From a virus, in the IMG/VR virus record IMGVR_UViG_3300031772_000247, positions 1 through 25,936 of that record: a stretch of 25,936 bases of DNA. One strand, 5' to 3'. The position numbers and the translations under genes were made by a program. This document shows, piece after piece, positions 16,041-20,884 of the stretch. Numbering within the stretch: the first letter of the stretch is position 1; every line of letters begins with the position of its first letter. The notes under the pieces were generated by a model, which did not search any database, had not been told where the DNA came from, and saw nothing but the letters and a program-made list of their open reading frames with translations.

Positions 16041-18692
16041 ATGACCGCGAAATGGCCAACTTCTGTAGCAACTGATGCAGACTTATATGTAGCTAAAAAT
16101 GCGCTAGCTACAACGTTAGCTAGTACGATCACCGATATCGTCACGACAATCCCCCTTACAAATACTACGAACTTTCCTGTAGCAGGTGCTGTCACTATCG
16201 GCCAAGAAATTGTATTTTACACCGGTATTTCTGGTAGCGACTTAACTGGTTGTGTCAGAGGTTCGGATGGAACCATAAACGCGGGACATAACAGTGGCGT
16301 TCCAGTTTCTGCAACTGTGGTTGCATTTCATCATAACGGACTCATGGCAGAAATCGAAGCCATTGAAACGTACCTTAATTCTTTAGTGCTTGACAATCTT
16401 ACAGACGTTGTGATTACCACACCGGCTGCTGGTCAGATTCTGTCTTATAACGGTGTTGAATGGATAAATTCACCGGCGGTTAATACAAGTGGAGGATCTG
16501 GTATCTCTTTGTTCATGTCAGATGTTGCCAGCGTAGATGGTCAATTTAGCTTAGGTAATTTTCCAGATTTAACCCTTGCGACAGATTCTGTCTCTGTTAC
16601 ATCTGCTACTTCTCCATTAATCATGGAAGGCTACATTACATCAGGACTTGCTCGCACTCAATTAGACTCTGGTCTTTGGAGCATCGATCTTTTCAGGGCA
16701 GTAACAGCTGGTGGAGTTACGGGTACTCAAACAATCGAGATTGAATTTTTACGGAGATTTTTAGGAGCTGGAACGGTTACTACGACTGGTGGCCCAGGAG
16801 CCGGTCCACGAACGTGTACGGTTACAGGTGGAACACCGTTTATTAATCCTACTGATGGTAACGCTAATATAACTTTAGCGAGCCATGTTGAAACAGCATC
16901 AGGAGTGTTTCCGATTACGGCAGTTACATCTACGAGCGTCGTTACAATTCAAGTTCCTGCAAGCTACTCGAATGAAGCAGGTGTCGCGTATCATGTTCAA
17001 AGACGACTTTTTAATTTATCGACCGGAGACATAAATGATACAGTGATTACTCAGCAAACAATCGACAGCGTACAGCCCGCGTATACGGGTTTTGCTGTGG
17101 CAGATGAACTGTCTGTGCGATTCTTTGCTACAACGTCTACAGGCACTCGGACGGTTGCTTTTACTCACGGTGGCAGCACACAATATTCTCACATCCATAC
17201 TCCTCTCGTTACTACCCATAATTCTTTAGCAAATTTAGACGGCGGAGTTGCGGGCCAGTATTATCATTTGACAACTGCTCAACACGCCATTGCGACGCAA
17301 ATTGCATCTGCATCTCTTGCGGGTTATGTTTCAACGGGATCACAGACATTTGCTGGTGCGAAGACGTTTAACAATGATGTAACGCTCGCAGCTGGAAAGA
17401 ATGTCGTTCTAACCGATGATACGACAAATACCCTCACTTTGGCTCTCCCTGCGGCTGTTACCTCCTACACTCTTACCCTACCCACAACTGCCGGTACTCT
17501 GGACTATGTGTTAACCACAGATGGTAACGGGGTAACAACTTGGGCTAAGGCCGCTGCTGGGGCTGATATTGTTCGTGAAAATTACATTGTTGGAACCCCG
17601 TCAGGAAACTATTCTGGCTCAACAACCGTGTTCGATCTAGTTAAAAACTTTATTGTCGGCGGTGGTTCTCTTGTTGTCTTACTCGATGGTGTCGTGCAAA
17701 CAGTCGGTGGTTCTAATGACTATGTGGAAACTGACAGCAATACCGTGACGTTTAACAATGCGCTAGTAGCTGGGCAGAAAGTTGGATTCATGTTCTCGAT
17801 ACCGGTTAGTACGAGTGGTACTAACTTTTTCATGGAAGAGTACGATGTTGGTACGGCCTTAAATAACTATACAGGTTCTACAACTGTGTTTGATCTGAAC
17901 GGAACCTATACCCAAGCAAATAACTCAATGAGTGTATTTGTTGACGGTGTCCGGCAGAGACTCGGAGCGACCTATGACTATGTAGAAACCAGTGGGACAA
18001 GAATAACATTTAACGCAGCCTTAACTGCAGTTCAAAACGTTACATTTTTCTGGTTTAATACTACGACGGGTGTAGACTATGCCTCGAAGTCGCTAGATAA
18101 TTTATCTGCAACTGCTATTAATACTTCCCTCATCTCCGATACAAATAATACGGACGATTTAGGAAGTTCTCCGAAGAAATGGAAAGATATTTTTTATGCC
18201 GGAACGCTAACAGGCGCAGCTGCTACATTATCAGGAACAGTTGATGTCACAGGTCAACTAAAAGGAAAAGGTACGGCGACTAACGATAGTGCTGCATCGG
18301 GTTACATTGGAGAATATACTGAATCTGTTATTGGTAATACAAACATGCCGACCACTACAACCTTCGGGGATTTAACATCAATTTCACTAACAGCGGGAGA
18401 TTGGGATGTTTCATGCGCCGCAGTATTTGTAAAAAATCTGGCTACTTCTTGGGGAGTAAATTATTTGGGAGTAACTGCAACAGCAGGGAATTCCTCTACG
18501 GGAGTAGTTTACGGATCTAACATGGTTTTTATGGACGTTCCGGTTGCCAACTTATATGAAGCTCTTAGTTTGTCTTCGATCAGAGTGAGTATTTCGACTA
18601 CAACTACCTATTACTTAAAAACGTATGGTGTTTACAGTGGTGGCCAAGAAATAGTTTACGGCGCGCGCATTTCAGCAAGGAGAGTAAGATAA
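16041..18692 (+). CDS. Tail fibre protein
   Basis: An 883-residue protein. The first ~150 residues look like the attachment end (NFPVAGAVTIGQEIVFYTGI…, then AEIEAIETYL). Two tandem ~73-residue repeats lie at 515-586 and 601-673, each with GSTTVFDL, a DGV-x-Q strand, DYVET and a TFNxAL strand, typical of fibre shafts. At about 707 is SSPKKWKDIFYAGTLTG, a common shaft-to-tip motif. Residues 741-883 form a tip domain that begins KGTATNDSAASGYIGEY, contains SLTAGDWDVS and ends ISARRVR. The same domain occurs alone in the next two large genes. CGAGG precedes ATG 16041. Host recognition by the tip is inferred from position. Confidence 0.85.
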   Translation: MTAKWPTSVATDADLYVAKNALATTLASTITDIVTTIPLTNTTNFPVAGAVTIGQEIVFYTGISGSDLTGCVRGSDGTINAGHNSGVPVSATVVAFHHNGLMAEIEAIETYLNSLVLDNLTDVVITTPAAGQILSYNGVEWINSPAVNTSGGSGISLFMSDVASVDGQFSLGNFPDLTLATDSVSVTSATSPLIMEGYITSGLARTQLDSGLWSIDLFRAVTAGGVTGTQTIEIEFLRRFLGAGTVTTTGGPGAGPRTCTVTGGTPFINPTDGNANITLASHVETASGVFPITAVTSTSVVTIQVPASYSNEAGVAYHVQRRLFNLSTGDINDTVITQQTIDSVQPAYTGFAVADELSVRFFATTSTGTRTVAFTHGGSTQYSHIHTPLVTTHNSLANLDGGVAGQYYHLTTAQHAIATQIASASLAGYVSTGSQTFAGAKTFNNDVTLAAGKNVVLTDDTTNTLTLALPAAVTSYTLTLPTTAGTLDYVLTTDGNGVTTWAKAAAGADIVRENYIVGTPSGNYSGSTTVFDLVKNFIVGGGSLVVLLDGVVQTVGGSNDYVETDSNTVTFNNALVAGQKVGFMFSIPVSTSGTNFFMEEYDVGTALNNYTGSTTVFDLNGTYTQANNSMSVFVDGVRQRLGATYDYVETSGTRITFNAALTAVQNVTFFWFNTTTGVDYASKSLDNLSATAINTSLISDTNNTDDLGSSPKKWKDIFYAGTLTGAAATLSGTVDVTGQLKGKGTATNDSAASGYIGEYTESVIGNTNMPTTTTFGDLTSISLTAGDWDVSCAAVFVKNLATSWGVNYLGVTATAGNSSTGVVYGSNMVFMDVPVANLYEALSLSSIRVSISTTTTYYLKTYGVYSGGQEIVYGARISARRVR

Positions 18693-18693
18693 T

Positions 18694-19164
18694 ATGGCTA
18701 AACGAAATATACATTCATCTTTATATGTTCCAACAAAGGGAACTACGACTAATAATAACGCTGCTGCAGGAATGGTTGGAGAATACGTTTCTTCTAGAGA
18801 TACTAGTGGAGCGTCTGTCATAACAAGCAACACATTCCAAGATATATTGAGCATAACATTGACAGCGGGAGATTGGGATGTTTCAAGTATCCTGGCTTTT
18901 AATACTGGAGGTGCCACCGTAACCGCTGAATATTCAGCTATTTCTATTTACACAGGAAATACAACGACAGACCATGTTTTTGGGGACAACACGACTGTGT
19001 TTATCCTTCCGTTTACAACGGATGATATATATACGCACTCTATTCCAGCTTACAGACTTTCGCTCGCCTCTACAGCAACAGTTTACTTGAAGGGCAGCGC
19101 AGTTTATACTGGAGCTACAGTTAATTTACGTTATTCCAGAATTTCAGCAAGGAGGGTCAGATAA
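18694..19164 (+). CDS. Free-standing copy of the fibre tip domain, short form
   Basis: A 156-residue paralogue of the last 143 residues of the fibre. After only ~14 new residues (MAKRNIHSSLYVPT) it runs from KGTTTNNNAAAGMVGEY through LTAGDWDVS to YSRISARRVR. Length of the shared part (142 residues) is almost equal in the three copies. It has no obvious shaft or anchor, so it either joins another fibre as a tip, is swapped into the fibre gene by recombination, or acts as an assembly partner. The ribosome site GGAG (18679-18682) lies inside the ISARRVR codons of the upstream fibre. It begins two bases after the fibre stop. Confidence 0.8.
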   Translation: MAKRNIHSSLYVPTKGTTTNNNAAAGMVGEYVSSRDTSGASVITSNTFQDILSITLTAGDWDVSSILAFNTGGATVTAEYSAISIYTGNTTTDHVFGDNTTVFILPFTTDDIYTHSIPAYRLSLASTATVYLKGSAVYTGATVNLRYSRISARRVR

Positions 19165-19165
19165 A

Positions 19166-19327
19166 ATGTTTATTATTCAGATTAGTGAAATTGATTCAAG
19201 TTGTCACACTCAAGAGTGCGATGCTCTTGTACAGAAACAACGATTTATTGACTCAGGGATTTCTGTCGAGGATATTGCCATAACCGAAAAAGATACTTTT
19301 AATCCGCCACAGAATATAGGAGAATAA
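19166..19327 (+). CDS. 53-residue companion protein, copy 1
   Basis: A small protein beginning MFIIQISEIDSSCHTQE and containing KQRFIDSG and EKDTF. It is a paralogue of the protein encoded at 20017: by eye 37 of 53 residues are identical, while many codons differ at the third position, which suggests selection to keep the protein. A short strand at the start and a helix in the middle are likely; there is no membrane segment. It starts one base after the tip gene stop, with AAGGAGG inside that gene's last codons. Possible roles: fibre-assembly chaperone or tip-binding partner, inferred only from the repeated gene pairing. Confidence 0.8.
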   Translation: MFIIQISEIDSSCHTQECDALVQKQRFIDSGISVEDIAITEKDTFNPPQNIGE

Positions 19328-19333
19328 ACTACC

Positions 19334-20017
19334 ATGGCACGAACAAAAATTGATAAAACTTTAGTACCAGATCTTTTTCCTTTTTCTGGAGGAACTCTAA
19401 CAGGTCCCCTTGCGTTGCCAACAGGTACTTCTTCCGCAGCGAGCGTACAGATGACAGGAGCTGCACGAACTGGATTGTATTTCTACGGCGCGTATCCAAC
19501 GGAACAAGCCTGGTTCTCATGTCGTAGTGTTGATATTTGGGGTACTAATTCTTCAAACTTTGAGGTACGAGTTCCCCTTGTGGCGAAAGGAACAACAACG
19601 AATGATTCTGCTGCCGCAGGTTATATCGGAGAATATATTGAATTAGTCACTAGTACATCGCAGAATTTTCCGACATCGACACAGTACGGCGATTTGAATG
19701 GCGGCGCGGCTGATATTTCTTTGACAGCCGGAGATTGGGATGTTACGGTAACTTTTAGAACAAATTTAAATTCATCAACTTGCACAGATGTTTCATGTGG
19801 AATTTCTATTACTTCGGGGAATAGCACAACTGGATTGGTTTCTGGAAGCAATTTATTTCTTATGGCTCCGCCAACTTCATCTTATGGAACAAATATGGGA
19901 TTTGTTTATCGAGTATCGTTAGCCTCTACGACAACTGTTTACTTGAAGTATATGGCAAACTATTCAGCTGGAACTCCACAAGCAAGAGGAAGAATTTCAG
20001 CCAGGAGGGTACGCTAA
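19334..20017 (+). CDS. Fibre tip paralogue with its own N-terminal segment
   Basis: A 227-residue protein. Residues 1-84 contain a fibre-type sequence (FSGGTLTGPLALPTGTSSAA, then TGAARTGLYFYGAYP). Residues 85-227 form the same ~143-residue tip domain as in the long fibre (KGTTTNDSAAAGYIGEY…SLTAGDWDVTV…GRISARRVR). It may be a short fibre or a tip on a different stalk. AGGAG at 19318-19322 within the previous gene's end precedes ATG 19334. The stop overlaps the next start (TAATG), and the ribosome site for that gene again lies in the ARRVR codons. The short N terminus could attach to another virion protein. Confidence 0.85.
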   Translation: MARTKIDKTLVPDLFPFSGGTLTGPLALPTGTSSAASVQMTGAARTGLYFYGAYPTEQAWFSCRSVDIWGTNSSNFEVRVPLVAKGTTTNDSAAAGYIGEYIELVTSTSQNFPTSTQYGDLNGGAADISLTAGDWDVTVTFRTNLNSSTCTDVSCGISITSGNSTTGLVSGSNLFLMAPPTSSYGTNMGFVYRVSLASTTTVYLKYMANYSAGTPQARGRISARRVR

Positions 20018-20178
20018 TGTTTATTATACAAATTAATGAGGTTGATTCAAGCTGCCATACGCAAGAAATCGACGCGAATATTCAAAAGCAAAGATTTATA
20101 GATTCCGGAGTATCTGAAAGCGATATTTCCATCGTCGAGAAAGATACTTTTGAACCACCTTTTGTGATGCCCTCATAA
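20017..20178 (+). CDS. 53-residue companion protein, copy 2
   Basis: Paralogue of the 53-residue protein at 19166, of exactly equal length and with the same shared elements (MFIIQI, DSSCHTQE, QKQRFIDSG, EKDTF-x-PP). The C-terminal five residues differ completely. The start is fixed by the one-base overlap with the preceding tip gene and by GGAGGG at 20004-20009 in its last codons. A tip gene followed by this small gene thus occurs twice in tandem, while the long fibre itself has no copy directly after it. Function is unknown; an assembly or tip-associated role is inferred from the pairing. Confidence 0.8.
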   Translation: MFIIQINEVDSSCHTQEIDANIQKQRFIDSGVSESDISIVEKDTFEPPFVMPS

Positions 20179-20188
20179 GGAGAATTAA

Positions 20189-20884
20189 ATGTCTCAAAAG
20201 ACACCAGTTCTCTATGGAAATAGGCTGTATGGTTTGACTGAATATGCAATTAACGAAGATTTTGAAACGTTGACCGCTACTCTCTCGGATTCTACGAGCC
20301 TCAGTGACGCTAGGGTTATCGACACACTTACTAAAGCTCTGGCTGATCTTCTAACTTCGGCAGACGCGACGGCTCTTACTGGAACAAAGATACTCACCGA
20401 CTCTGCAACAATTACTGACTTGGTAGTGAAGTCCTTGACGCGTCACTTTACGGATACTTTACTGATGTCTGAGGCAGACAGTATTCAGTCGATAAAAGTT
20501 ATTACAGATGCTCTTTCAGTTCTCGATTCTACCATAGCAACGACCGGCACCAAACCGCTGTCTGATTCTTCAACCTTATCGGACCAAATAGCGGCTTCTA
20601 TCCAGAAGATTCTTGTAGACGCTTTCGTTATTATCGACAGCCAAATTTTAATGACGGGTACAAAGAGCCTTACAGATTTTATTCTCTTGAAAGAATGGAT
20701 CACAATTACTCTAACAAAAGTGAATCCGTGGACCAAAACTGTTACTTTACCGCCAAATATTCCGACTTACGGAACGATTCTTTACGGCCAGGTCTTATAC
20801 GGATACACACCGAGCATTGCTTGGGATAAACCACAACCTTCTAAAAAATCTTTTACTAACCGCGATGGGGAGAGTCATCAATAA
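20189..20884 (+). CDS. Virion protein with eight 18-19-residue D-x5-[D/E] repeats
   Basis: A 231-residue protein. Eight repeats start with a hydrophobic-x-D at D34, D53, D71, D89, D107, D126, D144 and D163. In each, a second acidic residue (D or E) follows exactly six positions later. The array is flanked by LYG motifs: VLYGNRLYG at 7-15 and YGTILYGQVLYG near the C terminus. A regular elongated structure is likely, such as a rod or solenoid. Paired acidic residues suggest possible metal binding, which is inference. AAGGAG precedes ATG 20189, and the stop overlaps the next start. It lies between the tip cassette and the nozzle-like gene, so a tail structural role is likely. Confidence 0.75.
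   Translation: MSQKTPVLYGNRLYGLTEYAINEDFETLTATLSDSTSLSDARVIDTLTKALADLLTSADATALTGTKILTDSATITDLVVKSLTRHFTDTLLMSEADSIQSIKVITDALSVLDSTIATTGTKPLSDSSTLSDQIAASIQKILVDAFVIIDSQILMTGTKSLTDFILLKEWITITLTKVNPWTKTVTLPPNIPTYGTILYGQVLYGYTPSIAWDKPQPSKKSFTNRDGESHQ

Follow-up and report, generated by a model that had tools for sequence, protein, structure and literature searches.

Modules of a fibre gene and a chaperone gene, their transfer between phages, and the presence of several receptor-binding proteins in one phage are all already known. Phage Mu carries pairs of fibre and Tfa genes in its invertible G segment, where the alternatives are switched by an invertase. Among solved systems, the one that best matches the locus described here is gp24-gp25 of phage Pam3 (PDB 7YPX, PMC9608196), in which the gene for a fibre with a TNF-like distal domain lies beside a chaperone gene. 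The 55-residue N-terminal domain of gp25 grips the side of the TNF-like domain of gp24, a separate helical domain trimerises, and gp25 was not detected in virions (PMC9608196). For Alteromonas phages A5 and V22, a module of fibre and cognate chaperone common to distantly related phages is described, and 'transient chaperone caps' are proposed (PMC10579305). The tail fibre gp47 of Pectobacterium phage PhiM1 (PDB 8vbx) is trimeric and present in six copies (PMC11440229). Here we describe an array of related fibre tips and very small partner genes in a virus sequence of 25,936 nucleotides (IMG/VR virus record IMGVR_UViG_3300031772_000247, a 25.9 kb fragment; hereafter the window), and compare it with related phages.

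Between positions 16041 and 20178 of the window, five genes on the + strand form one coupled run in the order fibre, tip, 53-amino-acid (aa) gene, tip, 53-aa gene (Table 1). A first-pass annotation made from the letters alone had described three copies of a tip domain, the two free-standing ones each paired with a 53-residue paralogue, and the five open reading frames (ORFs) are indeed found at those positions and in that order. The 156-aa tip protein matches the other two window tips, at the end of the long fibre and of a 227-aa protein, far beyond chance (E 6.7e-25 and 4.1e-23), and the two small proteins are identical at 37 of 53 residues, as had been counted by eye (BLASTP, 37 of 48 aligned, E 2e-27). 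That the tips are homologous repeats stands, but not that they arose by recent duplication: in our pairwise comparisons any two of them share ~40-52% of their residues, and the best matches in other phages share 51-58% with them.

The likeness to Mu lies in the repetition of units of fibre end and small partner gene in one phage; the window units differ in being in direct orientation and apparently all expressed, with no invertase found. As in Pam3, a TNF-like fibre gene lies beside a candidate chaperone gene, and the window partners match the size of the gripping domain of gp25 alone; gp25 itself has 162 aa, a C-terminal helical trimerisation domain and a Tfa-like sequence, whereas the partners, at ~50 aa, have no such domain and no match in sequence. 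The A5/V22 module is similarly shared between phages, with a cap function that we propose for the window partners too, but its chaperones have 195-240 aa, one fibre goes with one chaperone, the tip domains differ by the paper's description, and free-standing tips are not described in the text available (PMC10579305). Residues 402-534 of PhiM1 gp47 are homologous to the window tips, but this single fibre gene is followed by a DNA maturase gene, with no small partner and no array. What is new here is the existence of two partner families, their tiny size, the independent mobility of the partners, and arrays of free-standing TNF-like tips.

The pairing of tip and partner recurs well beyond the window. 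Small proteins of the window type (family A) and of a second type of the same size (family B) were counted in 20 whole records of 13-180 kb, where all 19 copies lie directly behind a tip gene and none elsewhere, and where the two families never occur together in one record; loci fetched with small-protein queries likewise show a tip ahead of the small gene. The start codon of the small gene lies -4 to +1 nucleotides (nt) from the stop of the tip in all 24 pairs examined. Tip and 53-aa gene thus form a recurring unit, as had been suggested. Start and stop are -1 to +1 nt or 6 nt apart at four of the five junctions of the window array. More generally, a coupled ORF of 40-140 aa stands behind 40 of 117 tips, as against 40 of 508 other ORFs of at least 250 aa.

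Each ORF in the array has a Shine-Dalgarno-like sequence in front of it, of the AGGAG type for the last four genes, and three of these AGGAG sequences sit within the codons that end the preceding gene. To judge by the sequence, the ribosome-binding site of the partner would be written by the last two arginine codons of the tip. GGAG is present in the tip-end arginine codons of 18 of 21 tips with a partner and 7 of 39 without a following gene, a contrast partly confounded by G+C content; in loci below 55% G+C alone, the counts are 17 of 20 and 7 of 18. A search for dedicated promoters or terminators within the array gave no excess over shuffled sequences.

The tip is the end of its ORF in all 120 tips analysed. 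An AlphaFold2 model of tip 2, made with 64 aligned tips, is a jelly roll (predicted local distance difference test score, pLDDT, 88.5; predicted template modelling score 0.79), an eight-strand sandwich that reaches VIA Z 9-12 to many TNF/C1q members with residues 22-156 aligned. The nearest solved folds are the exosporium proteins ExsF (VIA Z 12.4) and BxpB (12.0); the TNF-like lectins PLTL (11.1) and BC2L-C (11.0), the central spike of phage phi812 (10.9) and the short tail fibre of cyanophage A-1(L) (10.7) also match, with TNF and C1q proteins next. The tip is accordingly predicted to have a TNF/C1q-like trimer fold. PLTL and the N-terminal domain of BC2L-C are trimeric sugar-binding bacterial lectins of the same predicted fold, although only 16-20% identical to the tip over the alignment, and because the tip fold is TNF/C1q-like, the phage tip may bind sugars as well. 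In sequence, the tip matches residues 402-534 of PhiM1 gp47 (8vbx, E 3.7e-22) and the tail fibres of PHROG 11393 (phrog_11393, E 6.9e-11, profile residues 402-538). It is widespread, with at least 550 confirmed relatives among the 599 viral-contig stretches listed and 23 in bacterial or archaeal genomes.

The small proteins have no match in Pfam, PHROGs, NCBIfam or PDB, and no named homologue was found among cultured phages; scans with single small proteins yielded little, and one locus retrieved in this way (L004; related loci are labelled by L and a number) was a false match. Family A members stand behind tips in the window (twice), L040, L005, L019, L023, L025 and L171; family B members in L012, L013, L014, L016, L020, L021, L034, L035, L041, L042, L118, L120, L123, L125, L128 and L024. 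An AlphaFold2 model of small partner 2 has a beta-beta-alpha-beta order (pLDDT 91.4) and finds weak matches only, to uncharacterised phage proteins of 45-57 aa. Like Tfa genes, the small genes lie directly downstream of a fibre gene, but with 53 aa and beta-beta-alpha-beta only, their products lack the C-terminal helical trimerisation domain of the Tfa type. For the Tfa N-terminal domain, the Foldseek/VIA list holds weak matches only, and the absence of Tfa from it is no evidence either way. Neither family matches the Caudo_TAP or phrog_188 profiles at E up to 5; a third type of small ORF (L077) reaches phrog_188 at E 0.16 only. The family B member of L024 carries a 75-aa extension: this 129-aa partner (L024 4417-4803) joins family B-like first 50 residues to a further 75 residues and, by eye, is possibly a link to two-domain fibre chaperones, intermediate toward the Pam3 gp25 type; a PDB sequence search with it found no chaperone.

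Comparison of the same locus among related phages reveals that cassette number, cassette order and partner family all vary. The left-hand anchors of the locus were the adaptor and its neighbour, the right-hand ones the TPVLYG protein and a 1175-aa protein; the N-terminal domain of the long fibre is common to relatives with this gene neighbourhood. Between the anchors, with A and B denoting the family of the partner, the window has fibre, tip-A, tip-A; L122 has fibre, tip-B; L123 has fibre-B and then two secondary fibres of another type; L125, L128, L014 and L016 have fibre-B; and L023 and L025 have fibre-A. The fibres of L126 and L131 lack the TNF-like tip, and behind each stands a different 50-aa gene. 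In L171, tip-A precedes two fibres of another type, both with a gene of 53-60 aa of their own behind them. A different type of phage with other neighbours carries fibre-A in L040 and fibre, tip-B in L012.

Exchange of these units is visible at DNA resolution. Up to the GTTTNDSAAAGYVGEY motif, L020 and L041 have identical DNA (100%); past it, identity falls to 35-57% over most of the tip, is 65-73% over the small gene, and returns to 83-95% for ~150 nt beyond, a profile indicating that tip and partner were swapped together. Between L023 and L025, the synonymous divergence (dS) is 0.01-0.11 in neighbouring genes, 0.16 in the tip and 0.82 in the small gene (ratio of nonsynonymous to synonymous divergence, dN/dS, 0.29), so that here the small gene was replaced and the tip altered by point mutation. 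In L171, whose locus otherwise differs, the small gene and the first ~45 nt of the gene after it closely resemble those of L023/L025, and the small protein is like that of L023 in its N-terminal half and like that of L025 in its C-terminal half; as the L171 tip is only 38-39% identical to the L023/L025 tips, partners evidently also move alone. The first-pass annotation had named strict one-to-one orthology with no exchange as what would refute it, and the variation and exchange seen here are the opposite.

That annotation had further taken each small protein to be dedicated to its own tip, which the data do not favour: near-identical small proteins stand behind very different tips. The correlation of tip and small-protein distances is weak (Mantel r 0.14-0.16, p 0.08-0.19), and partner families are scattered across the tip tree, so what a partner recognises is probably the fold common to the tips and not the sequence of any one of them. 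Co-evolution of tip and partner, considered as a candidate, was rejected on the same weak correlation. The window pairs are real proteins that diverged under purifying selection: tips 2 and 3 give a dN/dS of ~0.26 with synonymous sites near saturation, and the small pair differs at proportions of 0.82 of synonymous (pS) and 0.22 of nonsynonymous sites (pN). A recent tandem duplication of the tips in place was likewise rejected, as tips of other phages are as close to the window tips as these are to each other, or closer; a single clade for the window tips is neither shown nor rejected by the tree (approximately unbiased, AU, test, p = 0.56).

The free-standing tips begin with a short shared motif (M[AS]RTxIDxSL): MARTKIDKTLVP in tip 3, MAKRNIHSSLYVP in tip 2, MSRTQIDASL in L035 and MSRTRIDPAL in L012. 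It starts 6 of 1379 ORFs. All six are fibre genes in fibre regions; they include L012's long fibre and a pair of secondary fibres whose C-terminal domain is an unrelated one, akin to the tail fibres of PHROG 4492. A start that is kept while the end is exchanged looks like a virion-attachment peptide, and the free tips would then be located in the virion.

Taken together, these observations lead us to favour, with moderate confidence, an array for receptor binding in which one fibre and two mini-fibres are accompanied by minimal chaperones or caps, and whose specificity is changed by exchange between phages. The carrier of the array would be a short-tailed (podovirus-like) phage. Its long trimeric fibre and two mini-fibres would each carry at the end a trimeric domain of the TNF/C1q-like type with which they hold on to the cell surface, probably to a glycan, and the N-terminal peptide would probably attach each mini-fibre to the virion. 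The translationally coupled partner of ~50 residues would most likely bind the tip during folding or trimerisation, recognising the common fold; a role as fibre chaperone is plausible. Host specificity would shift as tips and partners are exchanged among phages, with breakpoints at the conserved KGTTTND..GYIGEY motif and at the junction of ARRVR and start codon, and not by switching inside one genome. A broader proposal, which we put forward only tentatively, is that ~50-residue fibre chaperones or caps ('tentacle only') form a mobile class serving TNF-like tips generally, with at least two families exchanged independently of the tip, in a mix-and-match kit by which mini-fibres are added to the array.

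Several points weigh against the favoured array of mini-fibres and minimal chaperones. Tip 1 has no small gene directly 3' of it. No family A or B partner accompanies 96 of 120 tips, and in PhiM1 a DNA maturase gene comes next after the fibre tip, so a partner is not universally needed. For the small proteins, no sequence match to known Tfa was found and no fold match to it in the Foldseek/VIA list, and hhalign finds no homology that would unite families A and B in a single sequence family, although both read beta-beta-alpha-beta by eye. The small protein might instead be structural, an adhesin or cap retained on the tip in the virion and itself contributing to receptor specificity, as gp38 sits on T2/S16-type long fibres. 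Such a role would suit the replacement of the small gene alone between near-identical L023 and L025, its transfer to L171 behind a very different tip and the tip dN/dS of 0.93 between L023 and L025; but small proteins are more conserved than tips (70% against ~46% in the window pair, 65% against 49% in L020/L041), their dN/dS is low (0.12-0.29), and gp38 adhesins are much larger than ~50 residues, and we hold it to be unlikely.

Less probable still is the reading in which the small gene has nothing to do with the tip and is a passenger at a recombination hot spot that lies behind fibre tips. Its independent transfer, the weak co-variation with the tip and the lack of known homologues agree with a passenger, and yet one would then have to explain why 19 of 19 copies follow one tip type although the phages differ widely in gene neighbourhood, why two unrelated-looking families of the same size occupy the same spot, why start and stop are coupled in 24 of 24 pairs, and why unrelated ~50-aa ORFs stand behind other fibre types in the same neighbourhood (L126, L131, L171). 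We give the least credence to the suggestion, made in the first-pass annotation, that the free tips and their partners are spares for a change of specificity inside one genome; such switching would work by inversion or by recombination into the fibre gene, in the manner of the Mu G segment. The repetition of tip and partner beside the fibre invites it, as do conserved segments (21 identical nt at LTAGDWDV in the tips; 72% identity over 144 nt in the small genes). Against this, all genes lie on a single strand, the tips are old and diverged, and both free tips come with a ribosome-binding sequence and an N-terminal motif of their own; no Mu-type inverted repeats or DNA invertase were found in the window record, itself a fragment, and no resolvase-type invertase or reverse transcriptase (as in a diversity-generating retroelement) in the 20 records, which may be fragments. 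With no invertase, retroelement or inverted repeat found and translation signals for each unit, switching is disfavoured, and the free tips look like co-expressed mini-fibres. The original observation is thus confirmed and its interpretation partly supported.

On the reading as mini-fibres with minimal chaperones, two unannotated families of small proteins gain a testable role, and the trading of tips and partners can be followed to breakpoints at the tip-entry motif and at the junction of tip stop and partner start, where the last arginine codons of the tip would also serve as ribosome-binding site for the partner. Should the partners be chaperones, they would offer a simple system for the minimal requirements of fibre chaperoning and would, to our knowledge, be about the smallest phage fibre chaperones known. 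If free tips serve as extra mini-fibres, this would account for the way in which short-tailed phages gain receptor specificities without adding a whole fibre gene.

Table 1. Features of the fibre array and its right-hand border in the window
Feature	Position	Strand	Size	Remarks
Long tail fibre	16041..18692	+	883 aa	C-terminal tip domain
Tip domain 1 (predicted TNF/C1q-like)	18267..18689	+	~143 residues	C-terminus of long fibre
AGGAG, Shine-Dalgarno-like	18678..18682	+		Within Arg-Arg codons ending tip 1; would serve tip 2
Free-standing tip 2	18694..19164	+	156 aa	N-terminal peptide of 12-15 residues (MAKRNIHSSLYVP), then tip domain
AGGAG, Shine-Dalgarno-like	19150..19154	+		Within last Arg-Arg codons of tip 2; would serve small partner 1
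Small partner 1	19166..19327	+	53 aa	Family A
Free-standing tip 3	19334..20017	+	227 aa	Starts with motif MARTKIDKTLVP, then a short fibre-like linker and the tip domain (19586-20014)
AGGAG, Shine-Dalgarno-like	20003..20007	+		Within last Arg-Arg codons of tip 3; would serve small partner 2
Small partner 2	20017..20178	+	53 aa	Family A; start codon overlaps stop of tip 3
TPVLYG protein	20189..20884	+	231 aa	Conserved right-hand neighbour; right border of variable cassette region

As a whole, the window encodes a terminase, a portal, a major head protein, an SU10-type adaptor and fibre genes. Some further features of the related loci were noted. The two extra fibre genes of L171 (3169-5622) have another C-terminal type and are accompanied by small ORFs of 60 and 53 aa, so that units of fibre and tiny gene are not confined to the TNF-like tip. 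A short way downstream of the cassette, L012 (5283-6206), L120 (581-1177) and L040 (5782-6558) have genes that by eye resemble GIY-YIG homing endonucleases and could promote local exchange. The tips of L023 (4001-4423) and L025 (2680-3102) differ with a dN/dS of 0.93. For the small gene and three genes nearby the ratio is 0.08-0.29, and the first 110 residues of their fibres give 0.85; the tip values hint at fast or diversifying change.

The long fibre of the window contains a fibre-shaft domain of ~85 residues (YxGSTTVFDL..VxLDGVxQ..DYVET..ITFNxAL) twice in tandem (17675-17731 and 17933-17989), of which the syntenic fibre in L114 apparently has one copy. The TPVLYG protein is built of degenerate repeats of ~20 residues (TKxLxDxLTxxDA) whose number differs among relatives, with lengths of 231 aa in the window (20189-20884), 342 aa in L114 (3153-4181) and 285 aa in L013 (806-1663).

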